NCBI GenBank assembly: GCA_947586205.1
Contig: CANPXO010000006.1
Span: forward strand, 1-38,695
From: an uncultured Bacilli bacterium
GTDB taxonomy: Bacteria; Bacillota_I; Bacilli_A; RF39; UBA660
Length of the DNA stretch: 38,695 nt
Direction: 5' to 3'
Shown here: positions 12,605 through 38,695 of the stretch, in pieces
Layout of the letters: each line of letters starts with the position of its first letter
How positions within the stretch are numbered: the first letter of the stretch is position 1
The notes under the pieces: model-generated
Seen by the model: only the letters and a program-made list of their open reading frames with translations
What the model was told of the DNA's origin: nothing
Database searches by the model: none
Made by a program: the position numbers and the translations under genes

Positions 12605-12636
12605 CATAAAAGAGAAAGATTTGTTCTTTCTCTTTT
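12605..12636 (-). terminator. Intrinsic terminator
   Basis: Minus strand AAAAGAGAAAGA-ACAAA-TCTTTCTCTTTT. Confidence 0.55.
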
Positions 12637-13468
12637 AGCACATTGATGCGCGTAGCTCTTGAATACGACTTATATCAATCTGAGAAATATCTGATATTAA
12701 TTCATCAGGTAATCCTTTTTGAATCATACGTTCCACGGTTGCTTGTTTCTCATTGTTTTCACCAATGGCAATGCCTTCTTTTACAACTTCTTCTCTACGT
12801 GCATCATTGATGAATTTGTCCCATGCATCAAAGTTGAAAAACGCTGGATCTAACTCCGTATCAATTCTACTTGGAATATCAATACACATACTTTCCAACA
12901 CTCCATTTCCTTTACTTATTTTTTCTCGTTCTTCCTGTGTTTCTGCTTTCAAGAATTTTAGAAGTCTTATGTAATCTTCACTTCTGTTACCATTATAATC
13001 CACTTTTTCTAAACAGTCAAGTCTAATAATTATCATATTGACATATTTATTTAATGGCTTTAATGTTAAGCACTGTTCACAAGTACTTTCCATCTCTTCA
13101 CTAACATGTCTTGCAATGTTGATTTGGATAAGTTTTTTCTTTGGGTGATATCGTTCTTGTTTCACTAACTTGTTATTTGAAAGTGTAATAACATAAGCTG
13201 TACTTTTGGAAAATGCTTTTTCATCAAGTAAGCTGTACATTTCAAGATTGTAAAGAATTTCCTCTGTTTCATAGACAATGTCACATCGATTGGTTTTTGA
13301 TTCGATGTTTTCTCGTTCAAGTGTACTTTCAAAAGTAAGTTTTCCATGTAAGCTATTTTCTTCCAAATCAAGTAAGACTTCCAACATGTACTCTAAGTAC
13401 CTTTTGTTTTCTTGTCTTCCAAAGAAATCAGTAAATAAACGATCTTCAGTTAGACTGTGTTCTTCCAT
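12635..13468 (-). CDS. Rpn/PD-(D/E)XK nuclease family transposase-type protein
   Basis: RLFTDFFGRQENKRYLEYMLEVLLDLEENSLHGKLTFESTLERENIESKTNRCDIVYETEEILYNLEMY. Confidence 0.75.
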   Translation of the reverse strand: MEEHSLTEDRLFTDFFGRQENKRYLEYMLEVLLDLEENSLHGKLTFESTLERENIESKTNRCDIVYETEEILYNLEMYSLLDEKAFSKSTAYVITLSNNKLVKQERYHPKKKLIQINIARHVSEEMESTCEQCLTLKPLNKYVNMIIIRLDCLEKVDYNGNRSEDYIRLLKFLKAETQEEREKISKGNGVLESMCIDIPSRIDTELDPAFFNFDAWDKFINDARREEVVKEGIAIGENNEKQATVERMIQKGLPDELISDISQIDISRIQELRASMC

Positions 13469-13645: not shown

Positions 13646-13918
13646 TTACTCCATTTTTCTTCCTATTTCGCATAAAATATTTTTCATTATCTTTTGATAT
13701 AAAACAGTACAATAACAATTATTTTGAAATTCTTTTCTTTTTATGATTGCTAAATTATCTATAATCAAATAAGAAACAGATTTTTTAATAAGTTCTTTTT
13801 CACTTGTCCCAATTGCTTTTTCAAAAGCATAAGTAGTTATACATTTTTTATCTTGAAACAAGATACAAACATTTGGATATTTTTTCTTTAGTATTTTAAA
13901 TCTTACTTTTTTACCCAT
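13646..13918 (-). CDS. Uncharacterised 90-aa protein, last gene of the DGR operon
   Basis: Start overlaps the RT stop by 8 nt; KKKYPNVCILFQDKKCITTYAFEKAI faintly resembles a MutS N-terminal segment. Confidence 0.65.
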   Translation of the reverse strand: MGKKVRFKILKKKYPNVCILFQDKKCITTYAFEKAIGTSEKELIKKSVSYLIIDNLAIIKRKEFQNNCYCTVLYQKIMKNILCEIGRKME

Positions 13919-14972
13919 TACTATCTATATAATTTTCTATTTTCTTCTTACTTCCATATTTATAAGAATATAAATAATTATTGATAGAAGAAAAATATTG
14001 TTCAAAAGTAATAAAATCTTTTTGCAAATAAGATTTTATTCTTTTGACATTTTTCTTTAATTTACTATAAGTTTCATTTCTTAAAATACAAATCGTTTTC
14101 TTTTCTTTTAGAAAAAAACGATATCCAAGAAAAATAAATCCTTGTTTGATTGAATATATTTTTGTTTTATTCTGATTTATTTCTAAATAAAATTCCTTCT
14201 TTAATTTTTCAGAAATTAAATTTAAACATTCTTTTAAATAATTTTTATCTTCATGCATAATAATAAAATCATCCATATATCTGACATAATATTTTAAATG
14301 TAAATCATGAACAATAAAATGATCTAAAGAATTTAAATAAAAAACAGATAAAAATTGACTTGTTAAATTCCCAATTGGTAATCCTTTTCCAGGATAATAT
14401 TTAGGAAGTTCTACTTTCATCTTTTTTTCCAATTTTTCTATTTTTTGATTTACATATTCTTCATTTGTACTATCTATAATATGACATAAGACTTTATATT
14501 CTAATTCAGTTAAGTCATTTTTCACTAAATCTTTAACTTTTTGCTGATCAATATTATAAAAATATTTTTTTATATCTAGTTTTAACACATAGAAATGCCC
14601 ATGCTTTTTCATTTTCTCTATATATTTTTTAACAAGCCTTATTCCATAGTCCGTTCCCATTCCAGCTCTGGTCGCGACATTCCGAAAATCTAAATATTTT
14701 TCGAGCTTAGGAATTAAAACATGTCTTGTAAAATAATGGTTGATCAATTTATCATGTATCCCCATTGACATAATCACTCGACATTTTGGTTCATGAACTA
14801 AAAAAATATTATAATTTTGAATTTGATAATTTTCATTCATACATTCTTTTACAAAAAAAAGATTTTCCATTTTATGTCTTTCAAATTGCATTAATCTTTT
14901 TTTGTTTTTTACATTTTTACGAATTTCTGTTTCATATAATTTTAAAATTTTATAAATATCAATATTATCCAT
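13911..14972 (-). CDS. DGR-type reverse transcriptase
   Basis: YVRYMDDFIIMHEDK catalytic motif, GLPIGNLTSQFLSVFYLNSLDH (DGR-like motif 4), YVLKLDIKKYFYNID, KTKIYSIKQGFIFLGYRF; adjacent to Avd and TR. Confidence 0.95.
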   Translation of the reverse strand: MDNIDIYKILKLYETEIRKNVKNKKRLMQFERHKMENLFFVKECMNENYQIQNYNIFLVHEPKCRVIMSMGIHDKLINHYFTRHVLIPKLEKYLDFRNVATRAGMGTDYGIRLVKKYIEKMKKHGHFYVLKLDIKKYFYNIDQQKVKDLVKNDLTELEYKVLCHIIDSTNEEYVNQKIEKLEKKMKVELPKYYPGKGLPIGNLTSQFLSVFYLNSLDHFIVHDLHLKYYVRYMDDFIIMHEDKNYLKECLNLISEKLKKEFYLEINQNKTKIYSIKQGFIFLGYRFFLKEKKTICILRNETYSKLKKNVKRIKSYLQKDFITFEQYFSSINNYLYSYKYGSKKKIENYIDSNG

Positions 14973-15300
14973 TTATTTTTATCCATCCATAAATCATTTT
15001 GGTAATATTTCTTAATTCATCACATAAATTTTTACACAATTTTTCATTAATGTATTGTTTTTTGAGTGATAATTCTAAATAATAATCTATCATACTTATT
15101 TTACTAATAATTCTTCTTTGTTCTTCTATATCTTTTTCTTTTAAATTTGCATAAAAAATCAGTTCTAATGTTTCATATGTTGTATTTTCTAATCGATCAT
15201 GTAAAACTTTTTCTTTTTTAGGAAAATTCATTAAAGCTTTATCTAATAAAAGTATAAACTCTTTCATTTTGGTTAAAATTCTAAATTCAGTTGTATTCAT
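14965..15300 (-). CDS. avd: Avd-family accessory variability determinant (four-helix bundle / S23-like)
   Basis: 111-aa helical protein immediately upstream of and overlapping the RT; LDKALMNFPKKEKVLHDRLENTTYETLELIFYANL...LELSLKKQYINEKLCKNLCDELRNITKMIYGWIK. Confidence 0.85.
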   Translation of the reverse strand: MNTTEFRILTKMKEFILLLDKALMNFPKKEKVLHDRLENTTYETLELIFYANLKEKDIEEQRRIISKISMIDYYLELSLKKQYINEKLCKNLCDELRNITKMIYGWIKING

Positions 15301-15658
15301 AAATAATACTCTCTATTCTTTCTAGAACTTCACATAAAGAACCTGAATCTAAACTATCAATTTTTTTAAATATTTTTTGTAATCTTTCTCCTAAAATATT
15401 TTTATCTTGGGCACTTGCAAGAATTCTAGAATATTGATTTAAATTTTTGAAGTCTTTCACTTCCTCTTGTTCTCCAATAATTTTATAGTTTATTTTATTT
15501 TCTTCTAAAGCATTAATCACTTTATGAATTGCATTTTCAGGAAATCCTACTCTTCCCTTTATTATTTTATAACCTAGCAAGTAACTTAGTATCTGGGCAT
15601 CATCATCGTAAGTATCATAAAACAATGAAGACTTACGAATTGTTAAAAATCTTTTCAT
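15287..15658 (-). CDS. MutS domain-I-like small protein, DGR-associated (track ORF 15287-15703; likely start at MKRFLTIRKSS)
   Basis: SLFYDTYDDDAQILSYLLGYKIIKGRVGFPENAIHKVINALEENKINYKIIGEQ resembles MutS N-terminal domain (FYELF-DDA...GVP...L...GYKVAI.EQ); overlaps avd. Confidence 0.55.
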   Translation of the reverse strand: MKRFLTIRKSSLFYDTYDDDAQILSYLLGYKIIKGRVGFPENAIHKVINALEENKINYKIIGEQEEVKDFKNLNQYSRILASAQDKNILGERLQKIFKKIDSLDSGSLCEVLERIESIIYEYN

Positions 15659-15903
15659 TCTTTCTTTTTTACTCCTTCTAAATATTACTGCTATCATTAT
15701 CATTTTTTTTAAGTTTTAACTTCTCACTCCTTCCAAAATAATTAAGTACTGCTATCATTTTTTGTATGCAGTGTATAGGAAGTTTACGTATAAACCTCCA
15801 TCTGCATAATGAATTTGGGATATACCCTGGATAAATAATGTTCCTTATCACTCTCAAATTATAGCCTTGACCATAAAATCCACGTATTATAAGGAGCTGC
15901 AGT

Positions 15904-16010
15904 ACGGGAGCCACACCGTTGTTGTTGTTGTTGTCGACGTTGTTGTTGTTGACATACCCGTTCGAATTCACATCGAACGCATTGTTGGAGTTAGACGAAT
16001 TCGGCGATTT
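15904..16010 (-). repeat. DGR template repeat (TR)
   Basis: Aligns without gaps to VR1 16300-16406. All 24 mismatches are at T on + (A on the coding strand). Conceptual translation SPNSSNSNNAFDVNSNGYVNNNNVDNNNNNGVAPV is rich in AAC/AAT codons. Confidence 0.95.
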
Positions 16011-16072
16011 ACTAGATATTTACCCTTTATTACTAACACATTCGTGTTGTAACCAAATTTTAAAATATTTTT

Positions 16073-16099
16073 CCAAGTTTTGACAAAGCCAAAACTTGG
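16073..16099. other. Perfect 10-bp inverted repeat between VP1 and TR
   Basis: CCAAGTTTTG-ACAAAGC-CAAAACTTGG. Confidence 0.8.
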
Positions 16100-16185
16100 A
16101 CCCCCTCATCTTTCTACATAGGATTACATAAATATAAAGTCCTCTTTATACTCATGTAAAACTATTTTTTTCACGCCAAGGCGTG

Positions 16186-16218
16186 GAGCCGGGACGACAA
16201 CCCGCCGTCCATCGGCTC
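16186..16218. other. Hairpin/cruciform element downstream of VR1
   Basis: GAGCCGGGACG-ACAACCCGC-CGTCC(AT)CGGCTC, 11-bp stem with a 2-nt bulge; stem sequence identical to 37777-37810. Confidence 0.85.
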
Positions 16219-16220
16219 TG

Positions 16221-17937
16221 TTACTCCGCTTTAAGTACAAATGGATCTTCCACGCTTCCTTGACCGCTCGAGACTTTCACATTCGATGCCAGATACACGA
16301 CGGGAGCCACACCGCGGCAGTTGCCGTCGCCGACGCTGCTGCCGTAGACATACCCGCGCGAACCCACACCGAACGCAACGTCGGAGTGAGACGAATGCGG
16401 CGATATTGTCCATGACCAATCATTTGTTGGTGTTAACCAATCATATTCATAGCATCCACCATCATAATTATATAATTCTGTTTTTAAACATCCAGTTCTT
16501 TTTTCTTTGGTTCCTCCTACTGCATATCCAAAATCACTTGGATATATTAAGCCTACTCTTGCTTTGGTAGTTAAATCCCCCTCTTTTGGCCATGTCGTTG
16601 GTCTCGGTGGAGACGTTTGATATACTTCTGTTCCTCTTTCCTTGTCATACCATTGATTTGCATATAAAGAATCATAGTCATCATAACTAACTCCTCCTAT
16701 GTTCCATACAATATCTTCTGCTATCATGCTTTTTGATTTATCAGTTACTATTTGTTGATAATACTCTCCTTGTTCTCCATCTATTTCATTTAGTTTTTTC
16801 ATTAGACTTGCATTTGTCCAATCGTTTTCACCATTTTCATCCCAAGCATCATCTGCAATTTTACTAGCTTTTATAATTTTCAACCTTTGTTCTATATTAC
16901 CACTTGATGTCTTTACATTGACTAAACCTATAATTCGCCATAGTTCACAATGCTTTCCATCAGCATCACCCTCGGATTTACAATCGTCGTCACTATTAAA
17001 CCATACATAGTTATCTGGATTTGGTCCTGCATATCTTAACTCTGGTTCGGTCCATCCATCTAACTCTGGTTTTACCTCGAAGAGTCCATTTCCATCACTA
17101 TCTGGCTGCCCCCCCCCCCGGGTCTTGATCGTCTTCGTGGATTACACTATCTAAAACATCTTGAGGTAATGGTGAATCACTTCCTGAAGGCTCATCTCCT
17201 TGTTCATTATCACTCGCAAAGGTTGCGTGATTGATAATATGCACACTTGCTTGAAAGCTTTGTCCCATGACTTCATTTCCAGCAGCTTCATCAATCCATA
17301 AATACAAACGATAAGTTACACTTTGTCCTTGATCCCCACCTTGTTTTCCTTTTAAAATTCCACTATCTATAATAATAGATTGGTCTATTTTGTCTGGTTC
17401 AGGTAATTGAGATTTATCTGTATTTATATTTTTTTCTGGATTTTCTTTAGCAAATGTTCCTAAATTTTTTCCTTCCTCGGGTTTATTTGGATCATCATCT
17501 TCAGCATTTACTGTTCCCTCTACTTTTGTAATAGCAAACTTCACTTTATCTGTCATATTATATGAGCTAACCTTTTCCTTGGTATCAGGATTTTCAAACT
17601 GTCCATCCACATCTCCTTTTTGATTGTCTATTGAAGTATTTAAAGTCACAATATAACTATCATCAATCGTACAAGTATTTGTAATCGTAAATACATATGG
17701 TTTCCCTGTTAACCCTTTTTTATCACTTACTGGATAAGTATTCTTTAAATTAATTTGAGTTGTTTCTATGTCTTGATAGTTAATTTTAAAACAACCAACT
17801 TCTACAACATTTTCTTGTTCGGCTACCATATTTTTTACCCATAAAGCATAACTTTGAAAAGTCATTAAACAAACTCCTAAAGATACAGCTATTACAATTA
17901 AACCAATTTTATATCTTAATCGCATAATATCCCTCAT
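16221..17937 (-). CDS. DGR target protein VP1 (secreted/membrane-anchored, probable C-type-lectin-like C-terminal domain), interrupted by a -1/+2 frameshift at an 11-G tract
   Basis: ORF 17098-17937 (signal/TM N-terminus) and ORF 16221-16883 (VR-containing C-terminus). The frame of the latter is open back to the G tract (QPDSDGNGLFEVKPELDGWTEPELRYAGPNPDNYVWFNSDDDCKSEGDADGKHCELWRIIGLVNVKTSSGNIEQRLKIIKASK). Confidence 0.85.
16300..16406 (-). repeat. DGR variable repeat VR1 in VP1
   Basis: Aligns to TR with adenine-only substitutions; encodes SPHSSHSDVAFGVGSRGYVYGSSVGDGNCRGVAPV. Confidence 0.95.
17109..17119 (-). repeat. 11-nt poly-G (coding strand) homopolymer in VP1
   Basis: + strand CTG-CCCCCCCCCCC-GGGTC; coding GACCCGGGGGGGGGGGCAGCC. 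Confidence 0.9.
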
Positions 17938-18099: not shown

Positions 18100-19536
18100 T
18101 CGATATAAAGACATTCCGACCCACTAAAGACAATAATATATTTTTGAAGTGGTTGATGTAATATTCATCTTCACTATATCTTTCTATTTGTTCTTTTGCT
18201 TCTTTTATTTTTTCCTTAAGTAATTCTTCACTTCTATCACTTACTTTAATATATTTAAATTCAATGATAAAGTTATATTTACATATATCTTCTTTTTTTG
18301 ATTCTTGGATACTCTATATAAACGCTTAATGCAGGATGTCTAAGCAAAGTATAATACATTAATGCGATATATTTTTCATCAAATTTTATAAATACTCGAT
18401 TATCACATTCACTTAACATGCGACTCGCATACATCGTATATTTTTCTAATTTTCCATCATAAAACATATCGTTAATTGCATAATCTCTTTCTTCACTTTT
18501 TATTGTAAAATAAATTAAAAATAATTGTTATAAGCCTCTTTTATAACTTCATTAGGTATAGCAAAAAGATTTTTTGCATGTATTTCATCATATTCTTTCA
18601 TTGTTAAATATCCAAAATAATATAATAAGCTTATGATGTCATCTTGAGTAAAAGAAACTAACAAATTAAAATTATTATTAAGTTCTCCTATAACCATTCC
18701 TTCTTTTAATAATTGTTCTAATATTTCTTCATAATAAGAATTATTTTGTAATTTTAATAAATTTCCAATCTTTCCATAATTTGATACAATATTTTTATCC
18801 ATAAGACTTTCTGGAATGCTTTGGTATCTTTGGTAATAATTTAATAGATACATAACCAATGTGGCATTAAATACTCTTTCATTTGCATCTTTATGAAATA
18901 AATATCCATCATAATTTTCAATCATTAATTGATAAATTTTTTCTCTATCTTTTCCTAATACGACATCATTTAATAATTTCTTTACTTCTTCGTGAGTAAG
19001 TCCTATCATACTATTAAATTCCAAATCATTAGATATATCACTTGCTATGTTAAATCCTGTTGTCATACCTAGTGTAATAGGACATATTCCTGTTGCAAAG
19101 AATCTTTCTACTATACCTTCTTTTACATAAATTTTTATGTTTGCATAAAAAGCTTTAACATCTCCTATCAATCTCTTAAAGTGTTCTGTATTTCCTTCTA
19201 AAATAGCATTTGTAAAATTATCGTATTCATCTACAATAATATAAATTTTATGTTCTAAGTTTAATCCTTTTAAATATTGTAAGAAAGATCTTATAATATC
19301 ATCCGCATCCCCTTCTTTATTATAATTATAGGAAATATGATAATTTTGTATAAAATCATCTATTCCAGTGTTAACACAATTTCTAAAACTTTTCCTTAAA
19401 TCCATTTGGTCTTAAATATGCAGAAATCTTACTTTTACTTTTAAGTATTTCTTCAATAACATCTGTTTTATCTACATAATAATAATTTCCCTCTCTTAAT
19501 TCTTTAAAATTATCTACTCCTATTGGTAGTTTCATC
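18100..19536 (-). pseudogene. Degraded AAA-ATPase-like / PD-(D/E)XK (DUF1703-type) gene
   Basis: Start MKLPIGVDNFKELREGNYYYVDKTDVIEEIL near 19530, main body 18515-19405 (KIYIIVDEYDNFTNAIL), C-terminal pieces 18279-18467 and about 18100-18290 (YNFIIEFKYIKV) are in different frames; the Walker A region is missing. Confidence 0.75.
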
Positions 19537-37776: not shown

Positions 37777-37810
37777 GAGCCGGGACGAACATCCGCCCGT
37801 CCAACGGCTC
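37777..37810. other. Hairpin/cruciform element downstream of VR2
   Basis: GAGCCGGGACG-AACATCCGCC-CGTCC(AA)CGGCTC. Confidence 0.85.
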
Positions 37811-37814
37811 ATGA

Positions 37815-38695
37815 CTACCCCGTCGTCAATTGAAACGGTGAACTTGAAGAACCCGTACCGTCTAAGATGCTCACTTTCGATGACAGATAAAGGGCAGGCC
37901 ACACACCGTCGGAGTTGTTAGCGCAGTTGCCGTAGACATACCCGACCGAATTCACACGGAACACAGAGTGGGAGTTAGACGAAGCCGGCGATAACGTCCA
38001 CTTATACCCACTTGCAGGTTTTAACCAATCATTAGTGTTACAATTATTTGCTGTATCCCAATTATATAATTCTTTTGCTAAACATTCTTCTCTGTTTTCT
38101 GCGTTTCCTCCAACTGCATATCCATAATCACTTGGATACATAAGGCCTACACTGTGGAATAATTCAGTATCTATCTGCGATTCTTCTCCTACTTCCGTTA
38201 CAGGTTTCTTTGTATTACTAGAACTCCATGTTGTTTCTCTACCACTTGGTACTGTTGTTCCTCTTTCATATCCATACCAATGTTGAGCTAATCCATTATT
38301 TGCACTTGTATAACTTGCTGTTCCACCAAGATTCCATATAATTTCTTTATCTATCATATCTCTTGCTGATGCTTCCAATCCTTTAGTTCCTGTATCTGTT
38401 CCACTAAAATTAGAAGAAGAGTAATAATATTTATCGTTTAACATTTCCATTAATTGACTATCTGTCCATTCATTGCTTCCATAATCACTTGTTGAACTCC
38501 CTATTCCATTTTTTTTATAATCCCAACTATAATTTCCTATACTTTCATCTCTTATGATTTTTAATCTTTGTTCTACTTGATTATCACTAGTCATAACATT
38601 TACTAAACCTATAATTCGCCATTTCTCACAATGCTTTCCATCTGTACTATCTTCAGATGTACATCCTTCATCACTATTAAACCATACATAGTTAT
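37815..38695 (-). CDS. DGR target protein VP2 (N-terminus beyond window edge)
   Basis: Homologous to VP1 (KHCEKWRIIGLVNV, MYPSDYGYAVGG, VR segment); frame open past M38594 to the window edge (NYVWFNSDEGCTSEDSTDGKHCEKWRIIGLVNV). Confidence 0.88.
   Translation of the reverse strand, partial: NYVWFNSDEGCTSEDSTDGKHCEKWRIIGLVNVMTSDNQVEQRLKIIRDESIGNYSWDYKKNGIGSSTSDYGSNEWTDSQLMEMLNDKYYYSSSNFSGTDTGTKGLEASARDMIDKEIIWNLGGTASYTSANNGLAQHWYGYERGTTVPSGRETTWSSSNTKKPVTEVGEESQIDTELFHSVGLMYPSDYGYAVGGNAENREECLAKELYNWDTANNCNTNDWLKPASGYKWTLSPASSNSHSVFRVNSVGYVYGNCANNSDGVWPALYLSSKVSILDGTGSSSSPFQLTTG
37902..37993 (-). repeat. DGR-like variable repeat VR2 in VP2
   Basis: Encodes SPASSNSHSVFRVNSVGYVYGNCANNSDGVWPA; aligns to TR mostly with adenine-site changes, but 2 codons shorter and with some non-adenine differences. 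Confidence 0.85.

Follow-up and report, generated by a model that had tools for sequence, protein, structure and literature searches.

A chromosomal DGR in an uncultured gut Bacilli bacterium whose lectin-like targets carry putative poly-G switches

Introduction

Diversity-generating retroelements (DGRs) and homopolymer contingency genes tend to be treated apart, as distinct ways of varying a cell surface. Known DGRs, both the Bordetella phage BPP-1 type and cellular ones, combine a template repeat (TR) and a variable repeat (VR) that differ only at adenines, a reverse transcriptase (RT) with an SQ motif, an Avd protein, a VR at the C terminus of the target and a hairpin after the VR. Several paralogous targets and several DGRs per genome are also familiar. 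A hairpin downstream of the VR is mentioned for some DGRs in PMC3521204, and among DGR accessories PMC10053308 names MSL (MutS domain I) proteins. The locus described here shares these points with known systems, the MSL accessory as a candidate only. What sets the system apart is that a poly-G tract interrupts the target gene or stands in its promoter.

Homopolymers in promoter spacers of the Neisseria type are contingency loci. Slipped-strand phase variation at poly-G or poly-C tracts is described, for example, for bifidobacterial pili (PMC9187656). Shared with such loci is a homopolymer that sits within a surface gene or separates its -35 and -10 boxes, and whose length differs between copies and species. 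The difference is that the host here belongs to an uncultured gut Bacilli lineage, that DGR targets account for several of the genes so switched and that the switch is a putative one, read from assemblies. In open-licence papers, we found no description of homopolymer or phase-variable switching of a DGR target. The DGR itself is ordinary; what would be new, provided that sequencing reads bear it out, is that DGR targets also have poly-G switches.

Results

The window contains a complete DGR

We analyzed a 38,695-nt stretch of DNA (the window) from a 1.5-Mb genome with 30% GC, assembled in 104 contigs. The minus strand carries, in order, the target with VR1, a hairpin, the TR, a 138-aa MutS-I-like ORF, an Avd-like gene, the RT gene and a 90-aa ORF. 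The cassette ORFs overlap in an operon-like manner.

17098 to 17937, minus strand: N-terminal half of the target, 279 aa, with a signal/membrane segment and a stalk domain, ending just past the G tract (ORF list)
17109 to 17119, minus strand: G11 tract (C11 on the plus strand) separating the frames of the two target halves (sequence and frames)
16221 to 17140, minus strand: C-terminal half of the target, a 306-codon open frame with the lectin-like/DUF6273-like domain that carries VR1 (frame and paralogue matches)
16300 to 16406, minus strand: VR1, variable repeat (24 mismatches to TR, all at A)
16186 to 16218, minus strand: post-VR hairpin GAGCCG..CGGCTC, directly after the target stop codon (DNA fold z -2.9)
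15904 to 16010, minus strand: TR (TR1), template repeat (alignment to VR1)
15287 to 15703, minus strand: ORF of 138 aa, weakly MutS domain I-like, candidate MSL-type accessory (MutS_I 0.008)
14965 to 15300, minus strand: Avd-like accessory protein, 111 aa (NF033474 8.8e-15, phrog_3206 1.5e-15, bAvd 1.5e-8)
13911 to 14972, minus strand: DGR reverse transcriptase, 353 aa, intact (RVT_1 3.5e-18, phrog_1423 9.9e-67; IGNLTSQ, YMDD)
13646 to 13918, minus strand: ORF of 90 aa overlapping the end of the RT gene (ORF list; a like-sized ORF lies at the equivalent place in the C11 DGR)

The RT motifs IGNLTSQ (SQ, not SP) and YMDD are invariant between this RT and that of the DGR on contig C11. The Avd-like protein scores below the curated NCBIfam and Pfam cut-offs, and its homologues in the C11 and C31 DGRs exceed the Pfam bAvd cut-off. 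The 138-aa ORF sits in the place that matches an MSL accessory, but its own match is weak; its counterpart in the C31 DGR is a 124-aa MutS_I protein beside Avd and RT (E 5.1e-10). Gyrase/topoisomerase subunits, alanyl-tRNA synthetase and enolase, identified by ORF inspection, are encoded in the same window, which points to a chromosome. We conclude that the locus is a complete, canonical DGR on the chromosome of an uncultured gut bacterium of the Bacilli.

The two halves of the target both have intact relatives. The N-terminal half matches the N terminus of the intact C11 paralogue (30%, E 1e-10), and the C-terminal half, which has no stop within its 306 codons, matches the intact paralogues on C11 and C32 (39%, E 3e-66 and 1e-60). 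As to a possible C-type-lectin fold of the target domain, DUF6273 was matched weakly by 8 of 26 target paralogues, the variable domain had no match among PDB sequences, and an AlphaFold model of that domain, built on four sequences only, reached a pLDDT of 33. The lectin-like target may serve in surface recognition.

TR and VR1 differ exclusively at adenines

The earlier note had paired TR with VR1 over 107 ungapped nt, with 24 mismatches that all fall on adenines of the TR. Realignment returned exactly its coordinates and the same 24 differences. The coding strand is the minus strand, and a tally by template base, which that note had proposed, found every mismatch at a coding-strand A of TR and no C, G or T changed (0 of 71 positions). 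Two-thirds of the TR adenines (24 of 36) are altered in VR1, as A>G 16 times, A>C 4 times and A>T 4 times. The chance of all 24 mismatches landing on the 36 A's among 107 positions is about 2.5e-15 (hypergeometric). The mismatches lie at codon positions 1 and 2 only, 12 at each, and the N-rich codons of TR give many different residues in VR1. The alignment stops at 16010, where the next base is a non-A mismatch. VR1 is at the 3' end of its ORF, about 79 nt from the end of the target stop codon (16221), and is the only VR detected for TR1 in the genome assembly.

Assignment of the pair to a DGR holds, with the RT, the Avd-like protein and the MutS-I-like ORF directly downstream. The claim that TR codons cannot become stop codons by substitution of A is correct for AAC, AAT, GAC, GAT and TAT, and fails for a single AAA at the 5' edge, which reads ATA in VR1. 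That the template has been recently active, also proposed earlier, is borne out insofar as this tally, with 24 of 36 A's altered and every other site intact, suggests it.

A conserved hairpin follows several VRs

A 14-nt GGTGTGGCTCCCGT block common to TR and VR1 is a plausible candidate for an IMH-like end. The conserved hairpin after the stop codon is better evidence of a cis-acting target site than this block. It corresponds by position to the post-VR hairpin of known DGRs and has the form GAGCCG-NN-GGACG...CGTCC-CGGCTC after the stop codons of the VR1 gene, the gene with the second VR in the window, and the C11 and C32 genes. The hairpins fold better than shuffled sequences (z -2.2 to -3.1). 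We looked for the hairpin after the C34 and C24b VRs, where it is absent. A 27-nt piece of it occurs at 96% in related genomes, including a copy 120 nt after the VR of the DGR in genome G025. The hairpin may have a role in target recognition.

The genome has three DGRs and about 30 target-like paralogues

Besides the DGR of the window (contig C6), the genome has one on C11 and one on C31. The C11 RT is 71% identical to that of the window, and all 13 mismatches of its own VR are at A. The C31 DGR has a different type of target, a TR upstream of the target, and 20 of 23 mismatches at A. In this DGR (L092:133-4714), we also noted that the TR lies far upstream and that a poly-G promoter stands between TR and target, alongside the MutS_I protein, Avd and RT.

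A search with the target domain gave 31 matches including the TR itself, hence about 30 target-like paralogues. Few of them are VRs of TR1 or TR2, and some VR paralogues have non-A changes and are without the hairpin. One paralogue lies at the end of the window:

37815 to 38693, minus strand: second target paralogue, 3' part, its 5' end lying beyond the contig (43% identity across the C-terminal domain)
37890 to 37992, minus strand: VR of the second target, templated by a TR2-type sequence of another DGR (14 A and 3 T mismatches)
37777 to 37810, minus strand: post-VR hairpin of the second target (sequence and fold)

TR1 was ruled out as the template of this VR by the better fit to the TR2-type template. 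The three T mismatches to TR2 are also found in the C32 and C34 VRs, and therefore imply a further TR2-like template or an older TR2; a search of the assembly for such a further template found none. The same three T differences were read at window positions 37890-37992, at L037:2484-2586 and at L042:1395-1497.

DGR targets carry poly-G tracts at different positions

In the assembly, the target of the window is not a single open frame. The G11 tract, 0.7 to 0.8 kb from VR1, lies between the stalk half and the VR1 half and leaves them out of frame with each other, a splitting that the earlier note overlooked. We counted 12 tracts of at least nine G's in the genome, against an expectation of about 0.3. 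Tract lengths here are taken from single assemblies, in which homopolymers can be miscounted. Tracts are present in or just upstream of 4 of 5 assessable DGR targets, or 5 of 6 counting one inferred contig join. The targets of all three DGRs have one: an intragenic G11 in the window, an intragenic G10 near the start of the gene on C11, and a G9 in the promoter spacer on C31. The VR-bearing gene on C32 has a G10, in frame. Altogether the target tracts occupy non-homologous positions: two leave their gene out of frame, another is in frame, and one or two form promoter spacers. Since positions within the genes differ, the tracts look like separate gains. The C24b target has no tract, which counts against the switch reading, and the C34 target is cut off before the gene start.

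A promoter tract on contig C12 probably belongs to the second target of the window. We rejected a firm join of C12 to the window: the 49-nt overlap is exact but not unique, being present in C24 as well, and the join is only likely.

Further tracts of at least nine G's precede several other paralogues and the gene of an Ig-like surface protein, and one interrupts a glycosyltransferase-like gene. This last gene is split by a G12 at C3:46754 (L090, around 2750-2770) and is likely phase-variable.

Poly-G promoters are a feature of surface genes in the genus

Among named records, the closest are uncultured Bacilli (isolates called 'Lapin') and Candidatus Onthousia. We searched 37 genomes of the genus for the promoter form TTGAC-Gn-TGATAAAAT, in which 8 to 13 G's separate TTGAC from TGATAAAAT. 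There were 48 matches in 13 of the 37 genomes, and the reversed pattern, used as a control, had none in the same 37. In a wider family sample (152 sampled), the form was found in 3 genera besides this one. The spacer from TTGACN to TANAAT is 17 to 24 nt long, with a mode of 20. Where the downstream genes could be read, they mostly encode membrane-anchored surface proteins.

Directly after the -10 of poly-G promoters we observed a palindrome followed by a T run, resembling a terminator or a 5' mRNA hairpin. It was seen in L047, L050, L052, L091 and L094 and in the relatives L119-L147; its form is kept between species and its sequence is not.

About ten TR/VR pairs in relatives have mismatches that are A-only or mostly at A. 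The DGR target of G023 is out of frame at an intragenic G10 at about codon 30; that of G009 has a G11 promoter tract, and that of G008 a shorter G7. No tract was seen in the G011 target or in two Candidatus Onthousia-like DGR targets, and several relatives' DGR targets end at contig ends. Among the 37 genomes, having a DGR RT does not correlate with having poly-G promoters (6 shared, odds ratio 1.2, p = 1). We therefore conclude that the putative switch is a general surface-gene trait in this genus rather than a DGR component, and that DGR targets fall within that repertoire.

We also considered a phage origin and rejected it: viral contigs held only one distant RT (29%), and both the hairpin and the TR pattern are absent there.

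Proposed mechanism and alternatives

We favor, with a probability of roughly 0.7, the view that this is a canonical DGR and that its lectin-like surface targets double as slipped-strand contingency genes, with binding site and expression varying independently. The RT/Avd complex would reverse-transcribe TR RNA with errors at A, and the mutated cDNA would replace VR1, which lies in the lectin-like C-terminal domain of a surface protein anchored in the membrane. Such error-prone reverse transcription and homing to the VR may still take place. The G tract between stalk and variable domain would change length by slipped-strand mispairing, presumably yielding a population of mixed tract lengths, and each change could join the target halves in frame or separate them. 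Other DGR targets of the genome would have a like switch, either within the coding sequence or as the spacer of the -35 and -10 boxes, whose length is expected to affect promoter activity.

The frameshift could instead be a random one in the decaying pseudogene of a plain DGR. The gene is out of frame in the assembly, and decay does occur in the family, as the VR paralogues with non-A changes and no hairpin attest. Nevertheless, VR1 is free of non-A change, the C-terminal half stays open throughout, and other DGR targets also have tracts, at positions that differ and once in frame, in a genome expected to have about 0.3 of them. We consider a pseudogene unlikely. A shade less credible is a plain DGR with a target that is always in frame, the G11 being a sequencing or assembly error. 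Homopolymers are error-prone and the assembly is fragmented into 104 contigs, but even with a miscount about ten real G's would remain in a row in a genome of 30% GC, and promoter-spacer tracts of 8 to 13 G's are found again in 13 genomes, where length and not frame differs. That TR and VR1 are diverged duplicates outside any DGR, with A-biased mutation of other cause, could draw on the many paralogues (31 matches) but is scarcely tenable. The mismatch tally refutes it, unless the RT is unrelated to DGR RTs; RT and Avd adjoin the repeats, and the other DGRs of this genome and of the genus show the same pattern.

If, as we favor, a DGR and a poly-G switch act on one gene, a population would vary both the binding specificity and the display of a surface protein, and diversification would no longer be tied to exposure to phage, host or competitor. 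Such dual action would explain, in a testable way, how a VR can stay free of decay although its target gene reads out of frame in the assembly. An attractive consequence is that the DGR could alter VR1 during an out-of-frame phase, for display later. We extend this to the genus only tentatively, rating it at somewhat less than an even chance: two layers of diversification, in which the retroelement would rewrite the binding site and independently gained poly-G switches would turn the same proteins on and off, with VR variants made in silence and exposed later. With three DGRs and about 30 target-like paralogues in 1.5 Mb, this genome is a compact study system.

Neighboring genes

Downstream of the window DGR is a PD-(D/E)XK transposase-family-like gene (12635-13468, Pfam match), and a similar-looking ORF downstream of the C11 DGR (L031:3921-4838) is, by appearance, a candidate PD-(D/E)XK-like gene. 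An AAA-ATPase_like gene at 18515-19405 of the window is seemingly broken into pieces.
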